IMG/VR virus record: IMGVR_UViG_3300037076_000109
Coordinates: 1-30,083 of that record
From: a virus
Length of the DNA: 30,083 nucleotides
Reading direction: 5' to 3' (one strand)
A model generated the notes under the pieces. That model saw nothing but the letters and a program-made list of their open reading frames with translations, ran no database searches and was not told where the DNA came from. The translations under genes and the position numbers were made by a program. Positions 188-24,875 of this stretch are shown here, piece by piece (position 1 is the stretch's first letter; the number at the start of each line of letters is the position of its first letter).

Positions 188-2596
188 CTAGTAATTTCCG
201 CCAAACATTGGTCCGATTCGGAGCGTTGTATCGCCCCCCGCTATGCCGACGTATCTGCCGGAAGGAATTGCAGTATCAACTTTTTGAATCTTCGGCGCTC
301 CGTTCACATAGCACGTCTGGATTGTTCCCACTGTGGTCATGCTGAGCACATCCCCGGCGGATGCGGTATAAGCAACTGTTGATCCAATCTGCGTTGGCGT
401 GCCGGATATGAATTTGAAAAGCTGTACTCCGGTCCCTTGAACATAGAAGCACGCATACATTGTTTCAACGGATGGACTCACTCGGCTTAGAACCGCGACC
501 GATCCCGCCGACGCCGGTAGCGTGACTATCGGAATTTGAATCCTCAGATTGTCACTACTCAGGGCGGTCGCGTAGTACATATAGCAACCCGTTGTCCCCA
601 CGGTCGCGCACGTCACTAAATTGGTGTTTATGCTGAGAGGTTGCGGAATGGTCGGGACTTGCGTCCACGGTGTGGTCAGATTTGCATTCGTTCGAGTGAA
701 ATCGTCGTAGACCACCGTTGTCACCGCCGCTGCCACGGTAGGAACGTAGGGGGGAATGTAATACCTGTACGCGCTTACTTGCGGTTTGGCGCTCCAGAAA
801 GTGAGCCATGCGTTGTAGATGAGCGAATTGCCGAATGCATTTGGGTGTATGCCGTCAGCGCCGAGTACGGTGCTGACGGCATACGACGAGAGCGGCGCGG
901 TGAAAATGTTCCCACTTGGATAGGTGGCGCTGATCCACGTAGCCAACGGCGCTTGCGTTGCCTGACAGGTGCTGGGCGAGCCTTCAAATATTGGCAGCAG
1001 GTGATACACGGTGATCCCGGCTGTTGTTAGTTGAGAAACAATGCTGGCGTAGTTCGTCTCAACCGTTCCGAGCGAGATTGAGTAAGCGCACAAATCGTTC
1101 CGACCGATGTTCAGCACCACGGCTTTAGGCTTCAACGCGATGATTTCAGGGATTTCGAGGAGTACGTCGCCGGTCGCATCTGATCCACCGGCCAGAGTGA
1201 TGGCCCTCGCATTTGTCTGTGCCAGCACCGAGAACGCTTGCGCATACGTTCCTGCATAGTAACCCACTGTTTTTGAATCCCCCACAAAAGCCACGTCGGT
1301 GCCAATCGGGATTGCGCTCGAAATACTTAGGGACGAGACAGCTATACTGCCCCCAAAATCGAACACGGCGAACCGTCCAAGGTTGGGCATATTGACCGTC
1401 TGCGGGTCCGAAACTTGAAACTGATACGACGCTGAGACTGCCGCACTGTGTGTCGTTAGGTCGCTGGCGGTACAGGTAAGCGTGTCAAAGTTTCTGTTGG
1501 CGGTTACAAATATTTGATCGCCTGCGGAATAAGCTAGATTACTGGGCGATTGTGCCAGCAGCGTTCCCGTTGCCCCTCCACCCCACACAACTACCAGCCC
1601 CGTTGAGCCAGTGTTCATGCCCATTTGACACACCGCATTGTAATAAGTCCCAGACGTTTCGGTGCTGCGAACGCCAAAGCCCAGACCATAGGTTGTGCTT
1701 CCCGCTGTCGGGGCTGTCATGGTCGCGGAGACTGTCCAATTTGCGAGCGTCGTGTAGTAGTTGTAATCCAAGCTGCTCGCAAACCCAGACGTTGCAGTTC
1801 CGGCAAAGTTGAGTGTCCCACCCGAAGTCGTAGGCGTCGGACTGACGCCGTGGTTTATGTAACCAGACAAGGAAGACCAAGATGTTTGATTGAGAATAAC
1901 GCCGGAAGCAAGTAACCCAGACACGCCGCCCGGTCCGCACCCGGTACCGTCCCCCTTAACGTATAGATCTGTACATGGTCCGGTTGCCCCGCCGATGATG
2001 ATGGGGTTCGTAGCGCCAGCCGCGACGATGCCTGGGAAACCCACCGCCTGGGATACGCCAGAGCCGGTCACGGTAACCCCCGCCGGAAGCGACCCGCTGC
2101 CAATAGGGCCGGTTGGGCCTGTCGGGCCGGTTGGGCCGGTTGGGCCTATGGCGCCGGGGATCATGTTCACCGGAATGCTCGAGACACCGGTGGCCGGGTT
2201 CCAGCTCGACCAGTCCCACGATGAGCCTGCGGTCACAATCGAGACCCCAGGGTACTGCGTGACCTGTCCCGTCGCGGTGTTGGTGATGGTGACGTGGTAG
2301 CGGATATTCAAGGGCGTAGTCAGCGCAGGGTTCGCGAGCTTGAATGTCGATGCGAACTGACCGGCGACGACATTCACACACTTCGTCGACTTGACGGCCT
2401 GGAATGCTCCGCCCACCGAGAATGCGATCGGGCTGTCGGTGGCGTCGGTCGCATAGGCGCAGTACTTACCCTTGATGCCGTCCCCGCCTGCATCCGAGAT
2501 CTCATTGGTGTTGGTCGTCGTGATGGTCAGGTAGTTGGACTGTGCCAGTACGCACGCAGGCGCAGCGAGGCTCAGCAGCAGCAATAGCTTCCGCAT
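188..2596 (-). CDS. Secreted-type tail fibre / receptor-binding protein with SGNH (GDSL) hydrolase domain
   Basis: This 802-residue protein starts at ATG 2596 behind GGGGAGAT. Residues 1-18 look like a Sec signal peptide (MRK, a Leu run, then VLA before Gln). A collagen-like GPT repeat lies near residues 149-164. A beta-rich LamG-like region follows at about 225-430. The SGNH esterase core comes next: block I GDS near 439, block III GRND near 498 and block V DGIHP near 582, which supply the Ser and the Asp/His of the catalytic triad. A second jellyroll-like region (from YDDFTRT) fills the C-terminus. In phages such hydrolases deacetylate or cleave surface glycans during adsorption. The last large gene after the tail-tip module is the usual fibre position. 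The signal peptide is unusual for a virion protein; a secreted adhesin or esterase is the alternative. Confidence 0.8.
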   Translation of the reverse strand: MRKLLLLLSLAAPACVLAQSNYLTITTTNTNEISDAGGDGIKGKYCAYATDATDSPIAFSVGGAFQAVKSTKCVNVVAGQFASTFKLANPALTTPLNIRYHVTITNTATGQVTQYPGVSIVTAGSSWDWSSWNPATGVSSIPVNMIPGAIGPTGPTGPTGPTGPIGSGSLPAGVTVTGSGVSQAVGFPGIVAAGATNPIIIGGATGPCTDLYVKGDGTGCGPGGVSGLLASGVILNQTSWSSLSGYINHGVSPTPTTSGGTLNFAGTATSGFASSLDYNYYTTLANWTVSATMTAPTAGSTTYGLGFGVRSTETSGTYYNAVCQMGMNTGSTGLVVVWGGGATGTLLAQSPSNLAYSAGDQIFVTANRNFDTLTCTASDLTTHSAAVSASYQFQVSDPQTVNMPNLGRFAVFDFGGSIAVSSLSISSAIPIGTDVAFVGDSKTVGYYAGTYAQAFSVLAQTNARAITLAGGSDATGDVLLEIPEIIALKPKAVVLNIGRNDLCAYSISLGTVETNYASIVSQLTTAGITVYHLLPIFEGSPSTCQATQAPLATWISATYPSGNIFTAPLSSYAVSTVLGADGIHPNAFGNSLIYNAWLTFWSAKPQVSAYRYYIPPYVPTVAAAVTTVVYDDFTRTNANLTTPWTQVPTIPQPLSINTNLVTCATVGTTGCYMYYATALSSDNLRIQIPIVTLPASAGSVAVLSRVSPSVETMYACFYVQGTGVQLFKFISGTPTQIGSTVAYTASAGDVLSMTTVGTIQTCYVNGAPKIQKVDTAIPSGRYVGIAGGDTTLRIGPMFGGNY
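2108..2147. repeat. Collagen-like 9-base repeat inside the fibre gene
   Basis: Near-identical GGGCCNGTNGG-type units encode the Gly-Pro-Thr repeats near residues 149-164 of the SGNH fibre. Such repeats form short trimeric collagen-like stalks in phage fibres. Confidence 0.75.
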
Positions 2597-14150: not shown

Positions 14151-14638
14151 TGGATTGCTCCCTGCATGGCAGCGGACAGGTTGGACCGGATCTCCGCCTT
14201 CATGTCGTCGAGCGCGGCGGCGAGATACGGCCGCGGCCTAAACTTCGAACCCGGATGGTGCACAAGCTTGCGGTAGATCATCTGGCCACCCGCCATGAAC
14301 GCGAGTGTCTTTCCTTCACTGGCCTCGATGATGTGAGCCCTGGTCGTTCCGCCTTCGTGCAGGATCCGCGCGTAGGGTGCTGTGTTGGCCAGGGGTATGC
14401 CGACCCTTCCGATGATCGCGGTTCCCTGCTCCTGCGTTTCGCTGGCCACGTTGCGCACCAGGTTGCCGGTGCGCTGATTGATCATCTGCCCATGCATCTT
14501 TGCAGAGACCGCGTAAGTGCGTAGCAACATCATCTGCGTCGCCATGGCCTTCGCCGCCGCCGCGTACATGCGGAAGTATCCGCCTTCGATCTCGGCCGCC
14601 ACCTGGGGCGCGTTGACGATCTGGTAATCGATCCTCAT
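14147..14638 (-). CDS. HK97-gp10-like head-tail joining (neck) protein
   Basis: I choose ATG 14638 (163 residues, MRIDYQIVN...), overlapping the upstream stop as ATGA; the frame extending to 14911 is a shadow. The middle has the features of HK97 gp10-family proteins: RTGNLVRNVASETQ, a strand giving IIGRVGIPLANTAPYARILHEGG, and a C-terminal RPRPYLAAALDDMKAEI helix. These proteins act in head closure or tail attachment. Neighbours are the gp6-like connector and the terminator. Confidence 0.78.
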   Translation of the reverse strand: MRIDYQIVNAPQVAAEIEGGYFRMYAAAAKAMATQMMLLRTYAVSAKMHGQMINQRTGNLVRNVASETQEQGTAIIGRVGIPLANTAPYARILHEGGTTRAHIIEASEGKTLAFMAGGQMIYRKLVHHPGSKFRPRPYLAAALDDMKAEIRSNLSAAMQGAIQ

Positions 14639-15228
14639 AGGCCCACCAAGGCGCGATCGCGATACTGATTGATCACGCCGGTCACGCCGGGCGCGGTGTC
14701 TTTCTGCGAGAACGTTGCGGTGGTGACGCCGCCCATGGATTGAGTGATTGTGCCAAGCTTCGGCAGCCGGCGAAACGTGAACACAATCTGGTCGATGACC
14801 GCGCGCTCGATGTCGGCGGGCACGGTCGCATAACCGGCCGTATAGCTGATCTGCACATTTTGCCGGCCGCGCCAGAACTGCCCCGGATGGAGCGAGCCAT
14901 CGTTGAGGCATGTGCCACCGAGCATGAAGATTGAAAGGCCGTCGAACACGAAGCCCGGCTGCACGCTATCTGGCGATGACGGAACCGCAATCCCGTTCAC
15001 GGAAAGAGACTCGACAGAAATGATCGGGAAGTACTTGGTCTGGATCTGGTCGCCGCCCGTGCCGCTGCGGCGCTCAGTGTAACTGGCCTGGAGGATGGCC
15101 CCGCGGTTCATCTGGTTCAGGATCCACGCGCTGATTTCGGTGATAAGGCGCTTGAGCTGGGCGTCATCGTTGGTGTTGGTGATATTGAGATCCTGCTTCA
15201 CGGCATCGAGCGTGACCAGGTCTGCCAT
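14635..15228 (-). CDS. Head-tail connector (gp6-like adaptor)
   Basis: This 197-residue protein starts at ATG 15228 behind TAGGAGGCCGCC. It has the usual N-terminal helices of gp6/gp15-like connectors (LVTLDAVKQDLNITNTNDDAQLKRLI, then ISAWILNQMNRG), a central beta region with NVQISYTAGYATVPADIERAVIDQIVF, and a C-terminal extension. Connectors of this type form the ring beneath the portal. The YTAGY..VP.DI..AV pattern is typical of the family. Confidence 0.8.
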   Translation of the reverse strand: MADLVTLDAVKQDLNITNTNDDAQLKRLITEISAWILNQMNRGAILQASYTERRSGTGGDQIQTKYFPIISVESLSVNGIAVPSSPDSVQPGFVFDGLSIFMLGGTCLNDGSLHPGQFWRGRQNVQISYTAGYATVPADIERAVIDQIVFTFRRLPKLGTITQSMGGVTTATFSQKDTAPGVTGVINQYRDRALVGL

Positions 15229-15237
15229 GGCGGCCTC

Positions 15238-15453
15238 CTACTTCTCAAGTGCGATAGCAGCGTTCGCGGTCATCACGCAGATGCGTAGTTCGCGAATCGC
15301 AGCGCTCTGGTCAGCGGAACTGGGGGTGTTGGCAACAATCACCTTTGCGAATGCTCGGGCTGCCGTGCGGATAGCCTCATAGCGCGCCGGTTGGTCCGCT
15401 TTTGGCGCGTGGTAAGTGAAAATTTCATCGATTTCCGCTTCAGTGAAGGGCAT
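15238..15453 (-). CDS. acb2: Acb2/Tad1-hairpin domain protein, candidate anti-CBASS cyclic-nucleotide sponge
   Basis: I choose ATG 15453 (71 residues) because AAAGGA lies nine bases upstream; the TTG at 15471 is weaker. The sequence fits the short helical-hairpin family of phage Acb2: FTYHAPKADQPARYEAIRTA near residues 12-31, a second helix containing FAKVIVANTPSS, then SAAIRELRICVMTANAAIA at the end. Acb2 oligomers bind and sequester cyclic di- and trinucleotides made by bacterial CBASS systems, blocking effector activation. The gene lies between major capsid and connector with a hairpin upstream, so it would be made with late proteins. The family match is by recognition; ligand and activity are untested. 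Confidence 0.8.
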   Translation of the reverse strand: MPFTEAEIDEIFTYHAPKADQPARYEAIRTAARAFAKVIVANTPSSADQSAAIRELRICVMTANAAIALEK

Positions 15454-15484
15454 GCTTTCCGATCCTTTCAATCTTCGGCAGTCA

Positions 15485-15510
15485 GGGACGAAGGAGTGAC
15501 ACTCCGTCCC
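15485..15510 (-). terminator. Hairpin downstream of the major capsid gene
   Basis: Nested arms gggac/gtccc (15485-15489, 15506-15510) and ggagt/actcc (15493-15497, 15501-15505) form a ten-pair stem with a three-base bulge and a three-base loop. There is no U-tract on the minus strand, so it is more likely an attenuator or mRNA-stabilising 3' hairpin than a full terminator. Confidence 0.5.
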
Positions 15511-15559
15511 CGTCTGCTTTGTCGTGGGCGCATCCGGGCGCGCGGCGCACCCCAGACAG

Positions 15560-17053
15560 TTATCCCTGGCCGACGTTCTTCAGCAGGAAGTTCGACCAAG
15601 GGGTGTAGCTGATCAGGGCGGCGGAGACATACTGCCCACGGCCCCGGGTGCGGGTGACCAGTGGCCACTCGTATTCAGTCCAGTCGCGCGCACGTGCCTG
15701 GAAGCGGTACGGTACCGGCACGTTCGGCGTGGTGTAAGGCAGCCCCTCGGCGCAACCGAAGATCGTTCCCAGCGGGAAGTTCGGATGCACTTCGATGGAG
15801 GTGATCTTCCCGGTGTAGATGTTGTAGTAGTTCTTCACCGTCTCGTTGCCGGTCGCGCCGCGGTTGGTCGAGTTGGCGTCGGTAGTGAAGCGGAACAGCG
15901 GAGCGCCGCCGCCGCCGATGATCTTGGCGTCGATCGAGCGCTTCGTCCCCGAATCGCAATAGATGAAGTCCGGGCCGAGACGGTAGGTATCATACATAGT
16001 CTTGAGCGCCGCATCGATTTCGTTGATGCCGGCCGCGCCCGAAGCGGTAAGGTTGGCGCCGTCGAGAGACTTCACGTAGGCGCCCGAGTTCACCTGCTCA
16101 ACCTGAGTAATCAGGCCGTCGTACACGTAGGCGTCGATCGAGAAGTCGGTGGCCACCTTGGCATCGGTCGCCACCTGCGTGCCGACCGCCGGCGCAGTGA
16201 GGACCATGCTGTTGCCGCTGGTGATTGCCGCCAGAGCCGCCGTAGCCTTCGAGGTGCCGACAAACCAGGCATACCCCCACGCGCCGCGCACGGTTGCCAC
16301 AGTCGCGGCCACGCTGAGATTCGCGCCCAGGACGACCGTGTTCGATGCGGCCGAAACCGCCGAGTTCCCACCGTTGATGGTCTGCGAGAAGCCATCGTTT
16401 GTGGTGCGGGCAATCTGGCCAGCCACGCCGCCCACGACGGTCGACCAGCGCGCTCCGTTGTAGGTCAGAGCCACACACCAGCAAATATACGAAGCCGCGG
16501 CCAGGGTTCCAACGGCAGCCGCATTGTTGGTCAGCACCGGTGTCGGGCAAGTGCCCAGCGCAACCTGCTGCGAACCGCCGGCGCGCATGATGTTGCCGCC
16601 GTTGCCGAACAGGTCGAGCTGCTCTTCCTCGATCAGGTTATCGTTGAGCAAGGTCGTCATCAGGATCGCGCGCACATCGTCAAAGCCTTCCGCTGCGTCT
16701 TCAGATTCAAACGTCGTCGAGCCATCCTGGCCGACCGTGCGATAGGTCACGTTCAGATCCTGCTCGGTGAGTCCCACATCGACGCCGCGCTTGCCTTCAG
16801 CCACGCCGATGCCGCCCGATGCGGTGTTGATGCTGGTGAGAAGCTTCGCATTGAAGCTGGTGCCGCCCTTCGATGAAACGCGACGGGGCAGGTGAGAGTT
16901 GCGGAACGGCGTGAGCACCGGGTAAACCTGCTTGAGTAGCGCTTCAAGGTCGTAGGCTACGATTCCGGTGCCCGTAGTGATGGAAGCCTTCGAAGCCAAC
17001 AACGAACCGTTGGCCTTCGCAATGATTTCCTCAATCCGGTTCATGTAATCCAT
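15560..17053 (-). CDS. Major capsid protein with inserted domain
   Basis: I choose ATG 17053 (497 residues, MDYMNRIEEI...) because GAGGAG precedes it. The first helix resembles capsid N-arms, and LLKQVYPVLTPFRNSHLPRR, the E-loop-like region and the C-terminal VPVPYRFQARARDWTEYEWP segment fit an HK97-fold coat protein. Residues of about 165-310 look like an insertion: rich in Ala, Thr, Gly and Val, with CWCVALTYNGARWS and GYAWFVGTSKATAAL, resembling an Ig/FN3-like module. That would stand on the capsid surface and explains why the protein is well above the common 300-400 residues. It lies directly after the protease/scaffold gene, in standard order. Confidence 0.85.
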   Translation of the reverse strand: MDYMNRIEEIIAKANGSLLASKASITTGTGIVAYDLEALLKQVYPVLTPFRNSHLPRRVSSKGGTSFNAKLLTSINTASGGIGVAEGKRGVDVGLTEQDLNVTYRTVGQDGSTTFESEDAAEGFDDVRAILMTTLLNDNLIEEEQLDLFGNGGNIMRAGGSQQVALGTCPTPVLTNNAAAVGTLAAASYICWCVALTYNGARWSTVVGGVAGQIARTTNDGFSQTINGGNSAVSAASNTVVLGANLSVAATVATVRGAWGYAWFVGTSKATAALAAITSGNSMVLTAPAVGTQVATDAKVATDFSIDAYVYDGLITQVEQVNSGAYVKSLDGANLTASGAAGINEIDAALKTMYDTYRLGPDFIYCDSGTKRSIDAKIIGGGGAPLFRFTTDANSTNRGATGNETVKNYYNIYTGKITSIEVHPNFPLGTIFGCAEGLPYTTPNVPVPYRFQARARDWTEYEWPLVTRTRGRGQYVSAALISYTPWSNFLLKNVGQG

Positions 17054-17136
17054 GTGGTGCTCCTCGGCCAGCGGCCACTCAAGACCGGGCAGTGATGTGT
17101 GAAATGGTTGGGGTCGCGCGCCGAACGCAAAAGGAA

Positions 17137-17157
17137 CGGGCGCCAACGAGGCGCCCG
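17137..17157 (-). terminator. GC-rich stem-loop before the major capsid gene
   Basis: Arms cgggcgcc (17137-17144) and ggcgcccg (17150-17157) form a perfect 8-bp stem with a 5-base loop. On the minus strand it is followed by TTCCTTTTG, a broken U-tract. It lies 24 bases after the protease/scaffold stop and about 84 bases before the capsid start. It is probably a partial terminator or a transcript-processing site. Confidence 0.6.
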
Positions 17158-17180: not shown

Positions 17181-18632
17181 TTAGCGGCCGATGTTAAGCT
17201 CGCGTGCCCCGATCACCTGTGGTTTGGTCAGGATGCTCTTGGCAATCGAGTGAGGGTCTTTGGGGTCGACGACTGCGGCTGCTCCGCCGTTTTCGCCTTC
17301 CTTGGTGACGGTGGTGCCGGTTGCGCCGGGCCCGTAACTCTTGGCCGCGACGGGTTCGCTCCCGACAGTCTTCAAAACCGTCTCGAGGCCCTTGGCGAAC
17401 GAGTCGCCTAGCGCCTTGACGGCCGCGTTGGTTTCCTGGGCAATACGCAGGCTCTCTGCCGCATCCGTCTGGGCTTTTGCGAGCTGCGCTTTTTGGGCTT
17501 CATCCATCTCTGTGTCTCCATTTTCCGGGCTCGCGCCCTGGGGTTGCGGCACTGCGGCCGCCTTCGCAGGAGTTTTATCCCCTGGAACTTCATCGCCGTC
17601 GCCATCGTCTGCGGGATCCGCGAAGTACGACATGGCGTCGGAAGCTTTTTTGTGGCCATCGGCAACGGCCTTGGCGCACTTATGCAGGCCCTCGTGGTCG
17701 CATGCGCCGCTCATGCAGCCGGCAGCGCTGTCGAGAGCCTTCATGCAGTTGGTGACCGCCTGCAGGCCTTTGGTGCCGGCCTTCGAGACCATCTTCATCT
17801 TGGTCGCGCCCGCGGCCTTCATTGCTCCGATGACCTCGGAGACTTTCATCGCGCCCACCAGCTCCGCGCTCTCTTCGCGGGCCAGGTCGACGAGCACTTC
17901 GCAGAGGCTCGTGATCGCGGCCTTCAACTTGTCGGGCACCGGTGATCCATCGCCTTCGGACTCGCGCTCCCATACCAGGTCTTCCTGCGTCCAGCGCAGC
18001 GAGGAAATAATGCTGGCCAGATCGCCGATGTTGTACATGCTTTTCGCGACTGCGGTCCCGGGCGTCTTCGCTACTGTCTCGGCCACGATGGGCTCCTTTT
18101 CCGCGGCCGTGGCCGCCTTGAACTTGCGCTGTTCGGTGGCGCCACCGGCCTTGACTGCCGTAAAGGAAGCGTCTGGGTTGCACGGGTTGTCGCAGATCGA
18201 GAATTCGATTGGCGCGCACGTAAACCGCTTCGCCCCGGGAGTGCCCGAATCCGACCACTTGTCGCCGATGACCGGGCCCATGATCGAAAAGCCGGTGTAG
18301 ATGCCGTCTACGCATTTCTGCCAGGCCGCGTCATCGCCGATGTAAGAAGTCAGGATCACCAGCTTCTGGGTGTCGTCGAAGACGATCGGCTCGGAAAGCT
18401 TGCCTACTGCTGAAAGCTGGTGCATCTCGCGGATGTTGCCGTAGCTCTTGCCCTGGCTGCGGATGTAGACGCCATCGCTCCAGGCCTGGACGTAGGGCTT
18501 CGAGCTTGGGTAGTCGAATATCTCGCCCTCCGCGTCGAGCGCCTCGGATGTACCGATGCCGGTGACGGTGCGCTTCACCTCGTCCACCTTCGAGATCTGA
18601 CAATAGAGCGCCTTCATCAGCTGCTCGGTCAT
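17181..18632 (-). CDS. Prohead protease fused to scaffolding domain
   Basis: This 483-residue protein starts at ATG 18632, overlapping the upstream stop as ATGA. The N-terminal ~190 residues are an HK97-like prohead protease: EALDAEGEIFDY, candidate catalytic His71 in IREMHQLS, candidate Ser116 in YTGFSIMG, and FSICDNPCNPDASF, the usual end of the core. A middle region (about 245-355) is helical with several cysteines (AAGCMSGACDHEG). A Pro/Asp/Gly-rich linker follows, then a coiled coil (AQKAQLAKAQTDAAESLRIA region) and a disordered tail, typical of scaffold. It assembles and then cleaves the procapsid. No separate scaffold gene is seen. Confidence 0.85.
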   Translation of the reverse strand: MTEQLMKALYCQISKVDEVKRTVTGIGTSEALDAEGEIFDYPSSKPYVQAWSDGVYIRSQGKSYGNIREMHQLSAVGKLSEPIVFDDTQKLVILTSYIGDDAAWQKCVDGIYTGFSIMGPVIGDKWSDSGTPGAKRFTCAPIEFSICDNPCNPDASFTAVKAGGATEQRKFKAATAAEKEPIVAETVAKTPGTAVAKSMYNIGDLASIISSLRWTQEDLVWERESEGDGSPVPDKLKAAITSLCEVLVDLAREESAELVGAMKVSEVIGAMKAAGATKMKMVSKAGTKGLQAVTNCMKALDSAAGCMSGACDHEGLHKCAKAVADGHKKASDAMSYFADPADDGDGDEVPGDKTPAKAAAVPQPQGASPENGDTEMDEAQKAQLAKAQTDAAESLRIAQETNAAVKALGDSFAKGLETVLKTVGSEPVAAKSYGPGATGTTVTKEGENGGAAAVVDPKDPHSIAKSILTKPQVIGARELNIGR

Positions 18633-18829: not shown

Positions 18830-21157
18830 CTAAACCTCCGCGTCCTCTTTGGGCTTCGCGATGTGCAGCAGCTCGACGCAATGGCAGAGCGGATGCAGCG
18901 GGACATGCAGCGAGCCATCAGGAAAGAACTCGTCGATCCCGATCTCGCCGGCCGCCTCAGCGTCATCGCACTCATCATCGATATCGTGCAGGTTCGACAT
19001 CTGAGTGCTCTTGAGTGTTGCGCCCGCTTCCTTGCCCGTATTAACCGTCGCCGCGGTAAGCGCCATGGATGTTTCCGTCTCCGCGATCATCGCCGCCCGG
19101 CCGCTCGAGAACGTAAACGCCTGGTCGATATTCACGGCCAACTGCGCCGGCGTCCATTCCTCCGCGAAGGCCCGGGCGATCAGGTTGCGGAGATCCTCGC
19201 GCGTTGTCGTGGTGATAGCCCACCGCGCATTGGGATTCTCAACCAGCGCGCCGTTGAGCCATTTTTTGCCCACCATCTCAGCCGCGCGGGCCTGAGCGTA
19301 TTCGAGGGCGAAGGAGTTAGCCAGGTCGAAGAAGCTGCCCTCCTGAGCCATGTTCAGCGTGGCGAAGACCTGGCCGACTGCATCAAGCCCCGTGTCCTCG
19401 AGGTCGCCCTGAATCTGGCTGGCCAGGCTATCCCACACGCCCATGTCGATCAGCTGCATGGCTTCGTCGACTCTCGGATTCGGAGTGTCTCCGGCGGCTT
19501 TCTGAGCGGTCACCACGTACGGGGCGACGGTGTCGATCAGCTGTATGACTTCGCCGATTTTGAGGTCAGCCGGGTCACCGGCGGCCTTCTGAACTGTGGC
19601 GAGATGCGGAGCGATGATCTGACTGATCCGATGGCGTTCGGTGAAGAAGAAGGCCTTCAGCGTTGCGTGAATCCTGTCAGTAGCGGCGCGCCGTGCTTCC
19701 GTGAATTCCCCTGGGGCGATTTTCAGAGTTTTTTTTTGCGCAGTGATTTCGGCTGCCTTGCTCGCGACCTTCGGCGGGGGCTTCTTACCGCCCGTACCTG
19801 GAGTGTCTTCCTCGCCCGGGTCATCCTCCTCGCCCGGCTTCTTCGGTGCACCAGGCGCTCCCGATGGCGAGGGCTCGGCCGGGAACTCATCGCCCCCGTC
19901 GATCGGGCTCAGCCCGTCCCGCAAGCGCAGCTCATTCGGCGTGTTCTTGTGGATGGTGACATTGATCTGATCGATCTGCGCCTGCTTCAGCGGGTCCGTG
20001 TCCGCGCGCTCGTCCCACATGAACTCAACGTCGGGCGCGTTGAACATGTCGCGGCGCTGGACCTGCGAATCGATCTCATCCTTGACCCAGCCCATGATGG
20101 GCTCTTCACCCGACTCCATTCGCGAGTCGTCGGCCTGCTGCGCGGTGGCGCGGTTCATTTGCTTGACGAAGGCAGTCGGGGTCTCACCAAGGACGAAACA
20201 GAATACGCGCGCGGCCCACTCTTCGAACAGGCTCGAAAACTCCTCGTGCTTGATGACTGTGATTTCAGAGCCGGCCGGGACCGGAAGCATGCGCGACCGC
20301 TCCTCGAGGTTGCCGCGAAGCCGCGTCTCAATCTCCCGAATCAGCCGGACCGCGTTGTCGACGTTCATGTCGGCCGGGTAAGGGATCTGCGCGATCGGAA
20401 GGTCGGAGTCCGAGTAATAGTCGAGATGAAAAACCGTCTTGTAGATGAACAGCAGCATCAGCTGGATGGTCATCTCCACAGGCCCGTAGCCGTACAGCTT
20501 GTGTGTGCGCACATTGGCCGGCATGTACAGCAGTTCGTCGCCCTGGAAATCAACCGCGGGCAGACCCTTGATGATCTGCCGGTACGCCGTGAGCGGCGGC
20601 TGGGGGCGGCGCCCGGTCGAGTCGATGACCACGTTGATGGTCGCGCCGTCGATAGGCAAGAGATTCAAAATACGGCGGTCCTTGGTGCGCTGCACTTCAA
20701 GGGTGGCGGCGTCGATCACCAGGCGATCCTCAAGGACCATCCGGAGCCATTTCTTCCAGGAATGAATGGAGTCGGGCGTCTGGTAGAACTCGGTCAACTG
20801 CGTAATACGCGGATCCGCGTTCGACCGTTCCTTGGTCTGTGCGGTCGCTTCCCCAGGCTGAGCCTTCAGCCGGAAGTGCCAGCTCTTGGTGCACATCCGG
20901 TCCTTCATGGACTCGATGATGACCCGCATCAGGTAGCAGTTATCGGCGAACATGCGCAGCTGCCGAAAGCCGATGGGCTCTGTGGCCCGTGGCATCCAGT
21001 TGAGGTTCTGCGCCTGGCTAAAGTCGATCTGCCGCGCCGGCGTGCCTGGTGGCGCGGTGGCCGTGATCGGCTTACCCGGATTGAACCATCCATCCCACGA
21101 GGACCGCAGCCGATCGATAAGTGTCGGCCTATCGGGAACAACTTCAAGTTCAGCCAT
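18830..21157 (-). CDS. Portal protein fused to MuF-like minor head protein
   Basis: This 775-residue protein starts at ATG 21157 behind GAGG. Residues 1 to about 420 are portal-like: an N-terminal wing, IGFRQLRMFADNCYLMRVII, then LAGM-type ANVRTHKLYGYGPVEMTIQL and a stem region. An acidic Pro/Gly linker (about 420-465) leads to a lysine-rich A-tract stretch. A second part (about 475-775) has the MuF/SPP1 gp7 head-morphogenesis signature: FAEEWTPAQLAVNIDQAF, ETETSMALTAATVNTG, DIDDECDDAEAAGEIGIDEF and PLHPLCHCVEL. Portals form the dodecameric DNA channel; MuF proteins are minor head components injected or bound at the portal. These are separate genes in most phages. A slippery A9 tract lies in the junction. 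Confidence 0.87.
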   Translation of the reverse strand: MAELEVVPDRPTLIDRLRSSWDGWFNPGKPITATAPPGTPARQIDFSQAQNLNWMPRATEPIGFRQLRMFADNCYLMRVIIESMKDRMCTKSWHFRLKAQPGEATAQTKERSNADPRITQLTEFYQTPDSIHSWKKWLRMVLEDRLVIDAATLEVQRTKDRRILNLLPIDGATINVVIDSTGRRPQPPLTAYRQIIKGLPAVDFQGDELLYMPANVRTHKLYGYGPVEMTIQLMLLFIYKTVFHLDYYSDSDLPIAQIPYPADMNVDNAVRLIREIETRLRGNLEERSRMLPVPAGSEITVIKHEEFSSLFEEWAARVFCFVLGETPTAFVKQMNRATAQQADDSRMESGEEPIMGWVKDEIDSQVQRRDMFNAPDVEFMWDERADTDPLKQAQIDQINVTIHKNTPNELRLRDGLSPIDGGDEFPAEPSPSGAPGAPKKPGEEDDPGEEDTPGTGGKKPPPKVASKAAEITAQKKTLKIAPGEFTEARRAATDRIHATLKAFFFTERHRISQIIAPHLATVQKAAGDPADLKIGEVIQLIDTVAPYVVTAQKAAGDTPNPRVDEAMQLIDMGVWDSLASQIQGDLEDTGLDAVGQVFATLNMAQEGSFFDLANSFALEYAQARAAEMVGKKWLNGALVENPNARWAITTTTREDLRNLIARAFAEEWTPAQLAVNIDQAFTFSSGRAAMIAETETSMALTAATVNTGKEAGATLKSTQMSNLHDIDDECDDAEAAGEIGIDEFFPDGSLHVPLHPLCHCVELLHIAKPKEDAEV
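19729..19737 (-). promoter_or_regulatory. A9 slippery tract at the portal-MuF junction
   Basis: The coding strand has CAA AAA AAA ACT in frame, which contains the canonical heptamer A-AAA-AAA at residues 474-476. A -1 slip ends 17 codons later at TGA 19677-19679, giving a 493-residue portal-only protein; a +1 shift ends almost at once. Confidence 0.45.
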
Positions 21158-22010: not shown

Positions 22011-22646
22011 CTAAGCGGCCGGCTCCGTCTCGTCGGCGTCTTTTTTTTCAGCCTCGGCGTCCAAGTCGGCGGCGCTGGGATTCTCATACGCAGGTCCAGT
22101 CTCGATCGCATAGGGACTGATTGAAGAGACGGGCCCCGTCGGCACATGATCGTAGGTAGTGCCGGCCTGTTCGGGCCCGGGGGTGTAGGTCTCTTCCCTG
22201 ATGGGTTGGCCATCGGCATCCAGTTTGCCCGCTTCAACAACGTCCAGAACGGCGGGCCCATCGGGGTTATAGGCGTACGTATCGACCCGCGCCGGGCCAT
22301 CGACGTGAGCCCCGGTGGAATATCCGTCCTCTTCGGCAATCGTTTCAGGCGCAGAAGAATCCGCGTGCAGCCTGTAGGCCCCCTCGGGGTCCTCGACCAT
22401 GCGCCCTTCGGCGCGGAACCGCTTGACGCGACTCTCGAGGGGCACGACAACAGGCCTCTGGCGATCGAGCACCTCAAGAGTCCTCGCCTTCATCTCGTGG
22501 AACTCCTCCTCGAGGGCATCCAGCATGTCCTTGGCCTTCTCGACCTGGTCTTCGTTCAGCGTCGTAACGCCACTCGCTACGTGGTCGATGGTCTCCTGGA
22601 CCTTCGCTTTGTAGCCCTCAAGTTCGTAAACCGTGTCCTTGACCAT
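22011..22646 (-). CDS. Acidic hypothetical head-region protein
   Basis: I choose ATG 22646 (211 residues) over the adjacent GTG 22649, since both share AGGAGG. Residues 1-65 form a likely coiled coil (VYELEGYKAKVQETIDHVAS, then VEKAKDMLDALEEEFHEMKA). The rest is disordered and rich in Pro, Asp, Glu and Tyr, with many YxxxxGP-like segments and a final acidic tail. The stop of the large terminase overlaps its start. An A8 tract (22041-22048) shortly before the stop could allow a -1 frameshift into the next gene. Function is unknown; location suits a head assembly factor. Confidence 0.7.
   Translation of the reverse strand: MVKDTVYELEGYKAKVQETIDHVASGVTTLNEDQVEKAKDMLDALEEEFHEMKARTLEVLDRQRPVVVPLESRVKRFRAEGRMVEDPEGAYRLHADSSAPETIAEEDGYSTGAHVDGPARVDTYAYNPDGPAVLDVVEAGKLDADGQPIREETYTPGPEQAGTTYDHVPTGPVSSISPYAIETGPAYENPSAADLDAEAEKKDADETEPAA
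22041..22048 (-). promoter_or_regulatory. A8 slippery tract near the end of the acidic protein gene
   Basis: The coding strand reads GAA AAA AAA GAC in frame, containing A-AAA-AAA followed by G. The -1 frame has no stop from here to the ATG at 21948 and is the frame of the 82-residue gene. Confidence 0.4.
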
Positions 22647-24394
22647 CACGCCTCCTCAGCGGTGCGTTGTGCGAGTAACTGCCGCGCGAAGCTGGCACGC
22701 TCTGTCTGTGCGCTCGCTTCGCAGAATTGAATCCATTGTTCTAACTCGGCCGGGTCGATAATTCCACGTGGAACAATCCCCATGCCCACGGTCCGAATCG
22801 ATTCAGACCATTCGTGCTTCCCGTTGCCATTGACCGCCGCGGGCTTCGGCGGCGCTGCTTTCTCCGCTGCCTTCGCCGCGTCTTCCGCATTCAGCCGCTG
22901 GTAGAGCTGCATGAGCTTGTCGACGCCGGCGCGGGTTTCATTGATCGCCTGGCCGGAAGCATCGACCGTGTCGTCGTTCGGCCCGGATGGGAACATCGCC
23001 CACTCCTCGATCAACAGATCGACCCACCAGCGATGCTGCGGAAATGCGTCGAGGTCGGGCAGGTAAACATTCCCGGCCTCGATATCGCCCGATGCCGCAT
23101 AAGCTCTCGCGTACTTCGACCCCTGCGGTTCGACCGCGATGATGCCAGGGACCGTGTCCTGAAGGGACTGAATAATAGCCGGCCCGTTCGCCTTGTCCTC
23201 TACCAGAATCCGGCTCGCCCTGGGCTCGCGCAACGCAAGCCGTTTCAATGCATCGCGTGATGCCGGAAAGTTCATCTGTCCGTGCAAGGCATCAAGAATG
23301 TAACGGTTCGCTCCGACAATGCCGAATTTGAAGCCAGCTACGAAGTCGGACTGCTTCACATCCTTGAATGCGAAGTCCCAAGAGTCGACGACCATGTCGA
23401 AAGTCGCCGGAACCGCGCGGTAGTACTTCCACCATTCGCGCTTGCAGATGTTGCCGCCATCAGGCGCCGGCCGTTGCTGATCCTGCGTCTCGTGCGTGCG
23501 CCGGTGCACCTTGCGGCTGGTTACGACTTCCGGCGTGTGACGTGTCGGCTGCAAGACGTCGTCCACCGGCCTGATCATCTGCCGCCCCGAAACCGGAAAG
23601 TCGATGACCACTTCTTCTTTCGCGTCCTGCACCAGGGGAATTACAACCTGCGTCCACTGCCCTGGCTCGTTATGCAGCAGCCAGCCGGTGACGTCTTCAT
23701 AGCCGGTGCGCTGCTCGATCACCACGATCGCACCTGTGGATGGATCGTTCAGCCTGGTGCGGAACGTGTCGCGAAACCATTCATGCGCTGTCTTGCGCTC
23801 GGACTCCGACAATGCCTGGTCGGCGCTCAGCCCGTCGTCGAGAATCAGGATGTCGCCGCCCCGGCCGGTGCCGGTCGCGCCGACCGAGGTCGCGATCATC
23901 TCGCCCTGGACCGAGTTGCGGTATTGATCCTTGCGGTTGGTGTCTTCGGAAAACGTGATCGGCCAGAGCGACTGATACCACTCCGAGTCGATCAGGTTGC
24001 GCCGCTTCGAGCTGTGCTCGCTCGAGAGGTCCTTCGAATAGCTGGCGGTCAGGAAGCGGCTGCGCGCGTCCCTCGCCCATCCCCACGCCGGCCAGCAGAT
24101 CGTTCCTTCCGTGCTCTTCGCGGTGCGCGGCGGCACGTTGATGATCAGCCGCGTAATCTCGCGGCGCCATACCTTCAACAGGTATTCGCCGATCAACTCG
24201 TAGTGCCAGCTCCAACACAGCGGCCGTCCCGGTTCGAGAATGTTCCAGGCCGCCTTGAAGAACTCCGCCGGCGACGCTTCAAGCTTTGCCCGATATTCGA
24301 AGCGCTGGCGCTCTTCACTGCTCAGTGCATCGAGCTGTTGTTCGCGTTCGAGGAGAAGCTGCAGCTCGGCCAGTTCGGCGTCAACCAAGCCCAT
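22646..24394 (-). CDS. terL: Terminase large subunit
   Basis: I choose ATG 24394 (582 residues, MGLVDAELAE...), eight bases after the small terminase stop, with GAGG upstream; the longer frame to 24481 overlaps that gene. The ATPase part has a Walker A variant at about 87-95 (NVPPRTAKST), Walker B ILILDD at 182-187, and a coupling-type segment near 225 (IVVIEQRTGYEDVTG). The RNase H-like nuclease has VVDSWDFAF (acidic residues near 337-340), ILVEDKANG near 397-404 and PNDDTVDAS near 472-480. It cuts concatemers and pumps DNA into the head. All three acidic nuclease motifs are present, so it looks intact. Confidence 0.95.
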   Translation of the reverse strand: MGLVDAELAELQLLLEREQQLDALSSEERQRFEYRAKLEASPAEFFKAAWNILEPGRPLCWSWHYELIGEYLLKVWRREITRLIINVPPRTAKSTEGTICWPAWGWARDARSRFLTASYSKDLSSEHSSKRRNLIDSEWYQSLWPITFSEDTNRKDQYRNSVQGEMIATSVGATGTGRGGDILILDDGLSADQALSESERKTAHEWFRDTFRTRLNDPSTGAIVVIEQRTGYEDVTGWLLHNEPGQWTQVVIPLVQDAKEEVVIDFPVSGRQMIRPVDDVLQPTRHTPEVVTSRKVHRRTHETQDQQRPAPDGGNICKREWWKYYRAVPATFDMVVDSWDFAFKDVKQSDFVAGFKFGIVGANRYILDALHGQMNFPASRDALKRLALREPRASRILVEDKANGPAIIQSLQDTVPGIIAVEPQGSKYARAYAASGDIEAGNVYLPDLDAFPQHRWWVDLLIEEWAMFPSGPNDDTVDASGQAINETRAGVDKLMQLYQRLNAEDAAKAAEKAAPPKPAAVNGNGKHEWSESIRTVGMGIVPRGIIDPAELEQWIQFCEASAQTERASFARQLLAQRTAEEA

Positions 24395-24401
24395 ATTCGC
24401 C

Positions 24402-24875
24402 TCAATTGCTGTTCGCCTTTCGCTTTTCCAGCAGCTCAGCGATGCGCCGCTCGATCTCCTCCCGAGTGCCAGGCAATTCAAACGGGATTGGGCCGCCGCC
24501 CGGGCCGCTGGCCTCGATCCGCTGGCGGGCCTTGCCTTCTACGCGATCCATGATTTCCACCAGAGCTTTAAAGTCGGTTTCCTTCATCGCCTTGCGAATC
24601 AGTCGCATAGCCATACGCTCGGCGTTTGTCATTTCGGGGTGGATGGCCTTCGGGATGCCCTGCTCGCCGAGCAACAGGCGCAATGCGTCAGAGATGGGCA
24701 ACTTCGAAGGTCTGCCTCCCGGGTTACCGCTCTGACCTTTTTGCCAGGGTCGTAGGCCGGAAGTGTTGGGCTTCGGGCGAACTACGGGAGCCTTGCGCTT
24801 CTTGTTCAGCCAGCCCTTCGGCTTGTTCAGGCTGCCCTTTGGCCTTCCCCGCCCGCGCTTGCCGTCGCTCGCCAT
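24402..24875 (-). CDS. terS: Terminase small subunit, DUF5681-type, with N-terminal AT-hook
   Basis: This 157-residue protein starts at ATG 24875 behind GGAGG, right after the previous stop. Residues 1-20 contain the AT-hook-like GKRGRGRPKGSLNK, which binds the minor groove of AT-rich DNA. WQKGQSGNPGGRPSKLP near 45-60 is the DUF5681 signature. Helices follow (ISDALRLLLG; AERMAMRLIRKAMKETDFKA), and a C-terminal helix (REEIERRIAELLEKRK) may bind the large subunit. It recognises the packaging site. The dyad-rich leader just upstream is a natural candidate site. Confidence 0.85.
   Translation of the reverse strand: MASDGKRGRGRPKGSLNKPKGWLNKKRKAPVVRPKPNTSGLRPWQKGQSGNPGGRPSKLPISDALRLLLGEQGIPKAIHPEMTNAERMAMRLIRKAMKETDFKALVEIMDRVEGKARQRIEASGPGGGPIPFELPGTREEIERRIAELLEKRKANSN

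Follow-up and report, generated by a model that had tools for sequence, protein, structure and literature searches.

Candidate Acb2-family sponge gene in a phage head module, from a branch with altered putative pocket residues

A small gene between capsid and connector

The window, by which we mean the whole 30,083-nucleotide stretch of viral DNA analysed (IMG/VR record IMGVR_UViG_3300037076_000109), carries a small open reading frame (ORF) on the minus strand, 15453..15238, that runs from an ATG at 15453 to a stop codon at 15240–15238 and encodes 71 amino acids. The first-pass annotation had placed a gene at 15238–15453; these coordinates stand, while its strand is corrected to minus. The three motifs it had picked out, FTYHAPK, QPARYE and ANAAIA, are all present in the 71-aa product. 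A TTG at 15471, the earliest start codon in the frame, would add six residues. It abuts the AAAGGA ribosome-binding sequence that stands upstream of the ATG, and for this reason the ATG is preferred as the start. Relatives were found in viral contigs, at 14 loci in one search and with the best 80 of 549 kept in another. Across eight pairwise comparisons with relatives, pN was 0.15–0.25 against a pS of 0.67–0.93, and dN/dS was about 0.1 in the four pairs with finite dS, dS being saturated in the other four. The substitutions look purifying, and the low pN compared with pS indicates that the protein is maintained.

The gene, here called acb2, is part of a head module. Upstream, and read in the same direction, come a DUF5681 protein, by its position the small-terminase candidate; the terminase large subunit (22646..24481, minus strand; PF17289, E 3.5e-10; phrog_38, E 1.2e-89); a portal protein fused to a Mu gpF-like domain (18830..21157, minus; phrog_2662, E 8.4e-66, with PF04860 and PF04233 under their cut-offs); a head maturation protease (17181..18632, minus; phrog_9427, E 3.9e-11, the best family, phrog_21715, being without function); and the major capsid protein ORF (15560..17146, minus), which is 528 aa long from a TTG and whose true start is probably an internal ATG. 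The capsid ORF matches no named Pfam or PHROG family (phrog_13692 has no function given) and is identified by homology to annotated capsids. By tblastn it shares 27–29% identity with the major capsid proteins of Arthrobacter phages Mufasa8 and Sonali and 25% with the major head protein of an Alicyclobacillus phage, and all seven matching records span at least 80% of the ORF. Downstream of acb2 is a gp6-like head-tail connector (14635..15228, minus; PF05135, Phage_connect_1, E 5e-9; phrog_442, head-tail adaptor, E 7.4e-21), followed by neck and tail genes. The placement between capsid and connector given in the first-pass annotation is borne out by these matches on either side. At the tail end, the 802-aa product of 188–2596 (minus) has a GDSL lipase/acylhydrolase domain (PF13472, E 1.7e-11) besides a collagen-like GPTGPTGPTGPTGPIG stretch, and may be a host-surface deacylase.

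The GGAGG ribosome-binding sequence of the connector lies directly behind the acb2 stop codon, and the genes therefore look like one operon. As the phrog_442 alignment starts at position 84, acb2 was also considered as a split-off N-terminal domain of the connector. This was rejected, for the alignment of the window connector with its counterpart in Brevundimonas phage Polewnik already pairs residue 3 with residue 5.

The gap of about 106 bases between capsid and acb2 (15454..15559, minus) holds a strong RNA hairpin, GGGACGGAGTG...CACTCCTTCGTCCC, together with the acb2 ribosome-binding sequence. Positions 15454–15562 fold at −48.2 kcal/mol (z −3.3), and 2 of 200 shuffles folded at least as stably. 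The hairpin stands directly behind the capsid gene and has no T-run; at gathering score, Rfam gave no match within 15000–16000. It could lower or stabilise expression downstream, where the first-pass annotation had proposed late, high expression, and could also protect the capsid mRNA or dampen the genes that follow.

In three related phages, the slot between capsid and connector holds other small genes, with ORFs of 122 aa in Polewnik, 105 aa in Sonali and 72 plus 75 aa in an Acidobacteriota locus (G184). None of these is Acb2-like by Pfam (Polewnik and Sonali) or tblastn (G184), which suggests that acb2 is replaceable or optional cargo. A position beside capsid or portal genes is recurrent rather than special, with five other head-module cases. 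The acb2-family gene follows the capsid in Ps60, lies between portal and major head protein in Vibrio phage D80, follows the portal in Gordonia phage ChisanaKitsune, lies between portal and protease in a viral contig (L014), and stands just after what we read as a portal-like ORF in an Acidobacteriota genome (L299). Nearly the same placement is seen for Ps60 gp39 (Pseudomonas, Beetrevirus), whose gene comes second after the capsid gene and precedes genes for virion structure; it differs in its length of 108 aa, its PaP2-type sequence and its phage lineage.

Membership of a head operon, in a slot that relatives also fill with small ORFs, would suit a minor protein of head structure or assembly. 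However, the slot ORFs of the relatives do not match the 71-aa protein, and relatives of the protein itself are found elsewhere: two genes before RNase H in Tunturi_1, after an HNH endonuclease in Myrna and after a transcriptional regulator in Pahemo. The neighbour families of its branch are likewise mixed, most of them not head genes among the 25 listed of 159 families. This survey took in 130 proteins, each 125 aa or longer, from two ORFs per side by mechanical gene calls, dropping shorter and opposite-strand ORFs and 11 loci judged duplicates. We regard a structural role in the head as highly improbable.

Sequence relationship to Acb2

The Acb2-like identity given in the first-pass annotation is supported by an HMM match to the Acb2/Tad1 family. 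Pfam model PF24729 (Acb2_Tad1_hairpin) recognises the 71-aa protein at E 8.3e-12 and 45.6 bits, above the curated cut-off of 27, with residues 13–68 aligned to profile positions 1–57 of 58. The model gives 71.4 bits for T4 Vs.4 (T4 Acb2), 65 for the PaP2-like 119X gp26 and 59.6 for Ps60 gp39. It also gives 63.1 bits for a Vibrio phage protein of 74 aa, so a length of about 70 aa is normal for the family. Two PHROGs without function match the protein (E 2.9e-21 and 3.9e-16), and PADLOC has no family for it. As a single sequence, it retrieved no Acb2 from the PDB, only chance matches, and no relative from the genome contigs; the same contigs searched with alignment A3 yielded 11.

The relatives divide into two branches, described below: the window branch, with Arg at position 54 (R54-type), and a sister branch. 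The window protein is 50% identical over 62 aa to a sister-branch protein (L015; E 1e-19). Profiles were made from both branches mixed (A1, 10 sequences), from 50 R54-type sequences with five sister rows (A3, 55 sequences), from those 50 R54-type rows as the window branch alone (A8), from the sister branch (A4 and A7) and from T4/PaP2 Acb2 (A5). Against PDB chains, the sister-branch profile A7 matched the solved Acb2 homolog 43 (9ptq) at E 2.9e-5, followed by Tad1 at E 0.035. The mixed profile A1 reached the same homolog at E 7.7e-4, and A3 at E 0.038, ranked under a designed helical bundle. The window branch alone (A8) matched neither Acb2 nor Tad1 chains at E ≤ 1. Homolog 43, unlike the window protein, bears the REKS/TKLEEA signature found in the sister branch.

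Profile–profile comparison gave the same order. Against T4/PaP2 profile A5, the sister branch scored 86.5% (A4) and 83.5% (A7, E 8.4e-6), while the window-branch profiles scored 12.5% (A3, E 0.0023) and 2.2% (A8, E 0.021). A8 and A7, which share no rows, matched each other at 99.88% (E 2.8e-32). Direct profile proof of kinship with Acb2 therefore fails, since A3 without its five sister rows no longer reaches characterised Acb2. Judged by sequence, the tie between the window branch and characterised Acb2 is indirect and runs by way of the sister branch and the curated Pfam model. We take acb2 to be a genuine gene of the Acb2 family.

Predicted fold

The AlphaFold2 model of the 71-aa protein, computed from alignment A3 (55 window and viral-contig sequences), has a pLDDT of 94.8, with helices at residues 5–11, 21–42 and 47–68 and no strands. 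The Acb2 protomer is described in PMC10419184 as a hairpin with one short N-terminal helix, and the predicted protomer has this layout, a short N-terminal helix followed by two long antiparallel helices. In a fold search of BFVD, all four matches at E ≤ 0.001 (6e-6 to 6e-4) are named Acb2/Tad1 hairpin proteins. Among solved structures, Foldseek ranked T4 Acb2 with cGAMP (7uq2) first (probability 0.69), at a non-significant E of 2.9. VIA-align also placed T4 Acb2 first (Z 6.5, rmsd 5.0 over 66 residues), with an unrelated chain in the next row (Z 6.2) and PaP2 Acb2 at rank 39 (Z 4.6). In a control model of the sister branch, T4 Acb2 was again first (probability 0.99, E 0.36) and Tad1 third, with PaP2 Acb2 at ranks 30 and 43.

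The fold check proposed in the first-pass annotation thus held for the protomer layout and the BFVD family matches, while the top solved structure fell short of significance. Direct fold proof of identity fails, as the Foldseek and VIA scores lie within the background of unrelated helical hairpins. The modelled fold agrees with Acb2 and is no proof by itself.

The model also bears on whether the protein could be a relative of Tad1 that has the hairpin only, with a Thoeris signal (a gcADPR isomer) as its natural target rather than a CBASS oligonucleotide. PF24729 covers both Acb2 and Tad1, whose C-terminal hairpin domain is shared by family definition. The sister branch has an S-R-E...A-L-T..EEAxMW motif in common with the Tad1 chains matched at E 0.035, and Tad1 came third in its fold search. 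PMC12043709 describes the Tad1 protomer as having an N-terminal antiparallel beta-sheet, with a gcADPR pocket to which four loops, the C-terminal tail and partner helices contribute. The window protein, by contrast with solved Tad1 (7uav, 8kbb-8kbh), is modelled as helices only, and even the earliest start would supply only six more residues for such a beta domain. Tad1 was reached at E of about 0.36 with mixed profile A1, and not at all with window-branch profiles A3 and A8. We consider a Thoeris-directed Tad1 relative very unlikely. The reading we prefer, and hold to be quite probable, is a small Acb2-family sponge that binds cyclic oligonucleotide alarm signals.

Putative ligand-site residues

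By alignment and Pfam register, Tyr14 of the window protein corresponds to Tyr8 of T4 Acb2 (Vs.4) and Tyr11 of the PaP2/119X-type Pseudomonas Acb2 (8h2j, 8h2x), both of which also match PF24729. Arg29 aligns with T4 Lys23 and PaP2 Lys26, a basic residue that in each protein stands 15 residues past the tyrosine. Among 220 unique cores, 208 have Tyr at position 14 and 216 have Arg at position 29. We take the position of PaP2 Lys26 and T4 Lys23 to be that of a basic residue for the ligand phosphate. The Y8A mutant of T4 Acb2 is binding-deficient according to PMC12657218 and PMC12657230. The background on Acb2 structures and ligands used here comes from reviews, the two Panoptes papers and a preprint.

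Other putative pocket positions differ. Phe82 of T4 Acb2, described as stacking on the ligand, corresponds to Ala68 in the window protein, and PaP2 also has Ala here. Ala47 falls at the position of PaP2 Arg67, presumably a trinucleotide-site residue, and of T4 Asp61. Arg54 falls at that of T4 Thr68 and PaP2 Thr74. T4 Acb2 therefore has D61/T68/F82 where the window protein has A47/R54/A68, and PaP2 Acb2 has R67 and T74 where it has A47 and R54. T4 Acb2 is also longer (88 aa), with a longer helix–helix loop and 16% identity in the fold match, and shares with the window protein its predicted protomer layout; PaP2 Acb2 ranks low in the fold searches. Among 14 T4/PaP2-type proteins, the T4 Thr68 position is T, S, E, D or Q, and never Arg. 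Because of this variation, and because T4 itself has Asp at position 61, the T68 and R67 positions are not Acb2-defining.

Two branches distinguished at positions 47 and 54

The 220 unique cores were obtained from 276 aligned segments by merging identical sequences and excluding any with over 12 gaps. At positions 47 and 54, 131 cores have Arg and Thr (R/T), 77 have A/R and four have P/R. The remaining eight are singletons (L/T, E/R, Q/R, P/N, E/K, V/K, E/M and A/H), and the E/M and A/H cores are probably stray segments. Arg54 never occurs together with Arg47 (0 of 83 cores), while Thr54 does so in 131 of 132. Three further positions track the pair: 57 (Arg vs Glu, Asp or Gln), 62 (Thr vs Trp) and 69 (mostly Leu or Cys vs Arg). 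The window protein carries A47, R54, R57, T62 and L69; Brevibacillus phage SecTim467 (L108) is intermediate, with A47 and R54 together with E57 and W62. The patterns used for collection included position 62 and two collections kept the best 80 loci, so sampling favours the two main types.

In a FastTree phylogeny (226 rows, 58 columns), the 83 R54 tips fall within one clade of 86 with support of 0.87, requiring two parsimony steps. Repeated compensatory evolution at positions 47 and 54 was rejected on this result, and the pattern is read as a single branch signature. The protein is thus of a known kind, and the modest new point is the R54 branch, with Arg at the T4 Thr68 position and a neighbouring Arg changed to Ala. 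No characterised R54 member was seen in PDB searches with the single sequence and with profiles. Members of the branch are seen in a few cultured phages, for example Tunturi_1 and Myrna, and otherwise in contigs from little-studied hosts such as Acidobacteriota and Planctomycetota.

Such changes raise the question of whether the protein has lost nucleotide binding or gained an unrelated ligand. Positions 47, 54, 57, 62 and 69 are all changed in the branch, which as noted never pairs R54 with R47 and alone gives no significant match to solved Acb2. Furthermore, R54 stands where the T68M substitution lowers the affinity of T4 Acb2, according to a figure legend of PMC12657230. Against this, Tyr14 and Arg29 are kept, the gene is under purifying selection, and position 54 also varies in the 14 T4/PaP2-type relatives. 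We therefore judge loss or replacement of the ligand to be very unlikely, and retain the reading of an Acb2-family sponge. Arg54 and Ala47, where the sister branch has Thr and Arg, may nevertheless give the window protein a signal range different from that of studied Acb2 proteins.

Proposed mode of action

Three-helix protomers would assemble during infection, possibly as the homohexamer seen for characterised Acb2. Pockets between protomers would bind cyclic oligonucleotides made by CBASS or related host systems. The bound signals would be withheld from effectors rather than cleaved, with a presumed anti-CBASS effect. A bolder extension, which we regard as speculative and possible at best, is that the coherent R54 branch has rebuilt pockets, with the predicted Arg moved from 47 to 54 and positions 57, 62 and 69 changed, and sequesters a signal or linkage isomer missed by known Acb2 and Tad1. 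If true, this would suggest that Acidobacteriota, Planctomycetota and the other little-studied hosts of the branch use such an immune messenger. The analysis also marks out the R54 branch as a large sister branch with altered putative pocket residues and a ligand that is easy to test.

Host and possible target pathway

The best named match of the window protein is Tunturi_1 gp101 (PP887698), from a phage of Tunturiibacter (Acidobacteriota). The two proteins are of equal length, 69% identical over all 71 aa, and share the A47/R54 signature. Gp101 differs in being annotated as hypothetical and in lying outside a head module. Acidobacteriota are soil bacteria whose viruses are little known, as stated in the abstract of PMC11924767. 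By term search, the main text of this Tunturi virus paper makes no mention of CBASS, anti-defence, defence systems, cyclic signals or gp101 (ORF101), and among the papers searched none joined Acidobacteriota and Acb2.

The window capsid had two matches at E ≤ 1e-10 in 396 sampled Acidobacteriota genomes. One locus, G184, reads as a prophage and is syntenic with the window over TerL, portal, protease, capsid, connector, terminator, tube and three tail-side proteins at 26–37% identity. Of 24 window proteins used as queries, 10 have a match there. Two queries in this set, neck and g3501, were out of frame and uninformative, here and in the L014 comparison. The syntenic prophage and the Tunturi_1 protein together suggest an Acidobacteriota host, which is likely and not proven; the first-pass annotation had raised such a host conditionally, and the evidence now favours it. 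The capsid of Polewnik, a Brevundimonas phage, is 38% identical to that of the window, so relatedness is not confined to Acidobacteriota.

The 11 genome contigs with relatives are all R54-type, to which the search pattern MTANA was biased. Four are titled Pyrinomonadaceae, Acidicapsa, Acidobacteria and Bryobacterales and are grouped as Acidobacteriota, where we presume the Pyrinomonadaceae and Bryobacterales contigs to belong. Three are from planctomycetes, including Singulisphaera, and four from Calditrichia, Ardenticatenales, Geobacteraceae and Caulobacterales. Among 396 Acidobacteriota genomes, PF24729 matched seven, five of them over the cut-off.

Of 199 sampled Acidobacteriota genomes, 16 have a SMODS (CD-NTase-type) domain, 14 over the cut-off, which makes a target pathway in this group plausible. 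The domain is present in one of four Acidobacteriota genomes with an acb2 relative. As a control, 3 of 14 named genomes matched, two of them archaea, so not every SMODS match need be CBASS. On our reading of the window gene, the known class of anti-immunity sponges would reach into the phages of Acidobacteriota.

Variant architectures and annotations of Acb2-hairpin genes

The L299 gene, at about 1500–1700 on the minus strand, encodes an RERS-type Acb2 hairpin whose frame continues for about 200 aa beyond the hairpin. In two further genomes, L300 and L301, the domain likewise stands in an open frame of similar length. C-terminal extensions are also present at L090:5992-6900 (whole protein 302 aa) and at L105:2468-2965, Myrna gp211 (whole protein 165 aa); phrog_31113, with 166 positions, may be of the Myrna gp211 type. 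In ChisanaKitsune (L106), genes 19–22 place the acb2-family gene between the portal and an RNA ligase plus an annotated VIP2-like ADP-ribosyltransferase toxin; this may be an accessory island within the head module. Finally, in Paenibacillus and Brevibacillus phages, Acb2-hairpin genes in several of the records KT361654-KT361657, KT151957, MG727698 and MH460825 are annotated as (putative) phosphomannomutase, apparently a mis-annotation.
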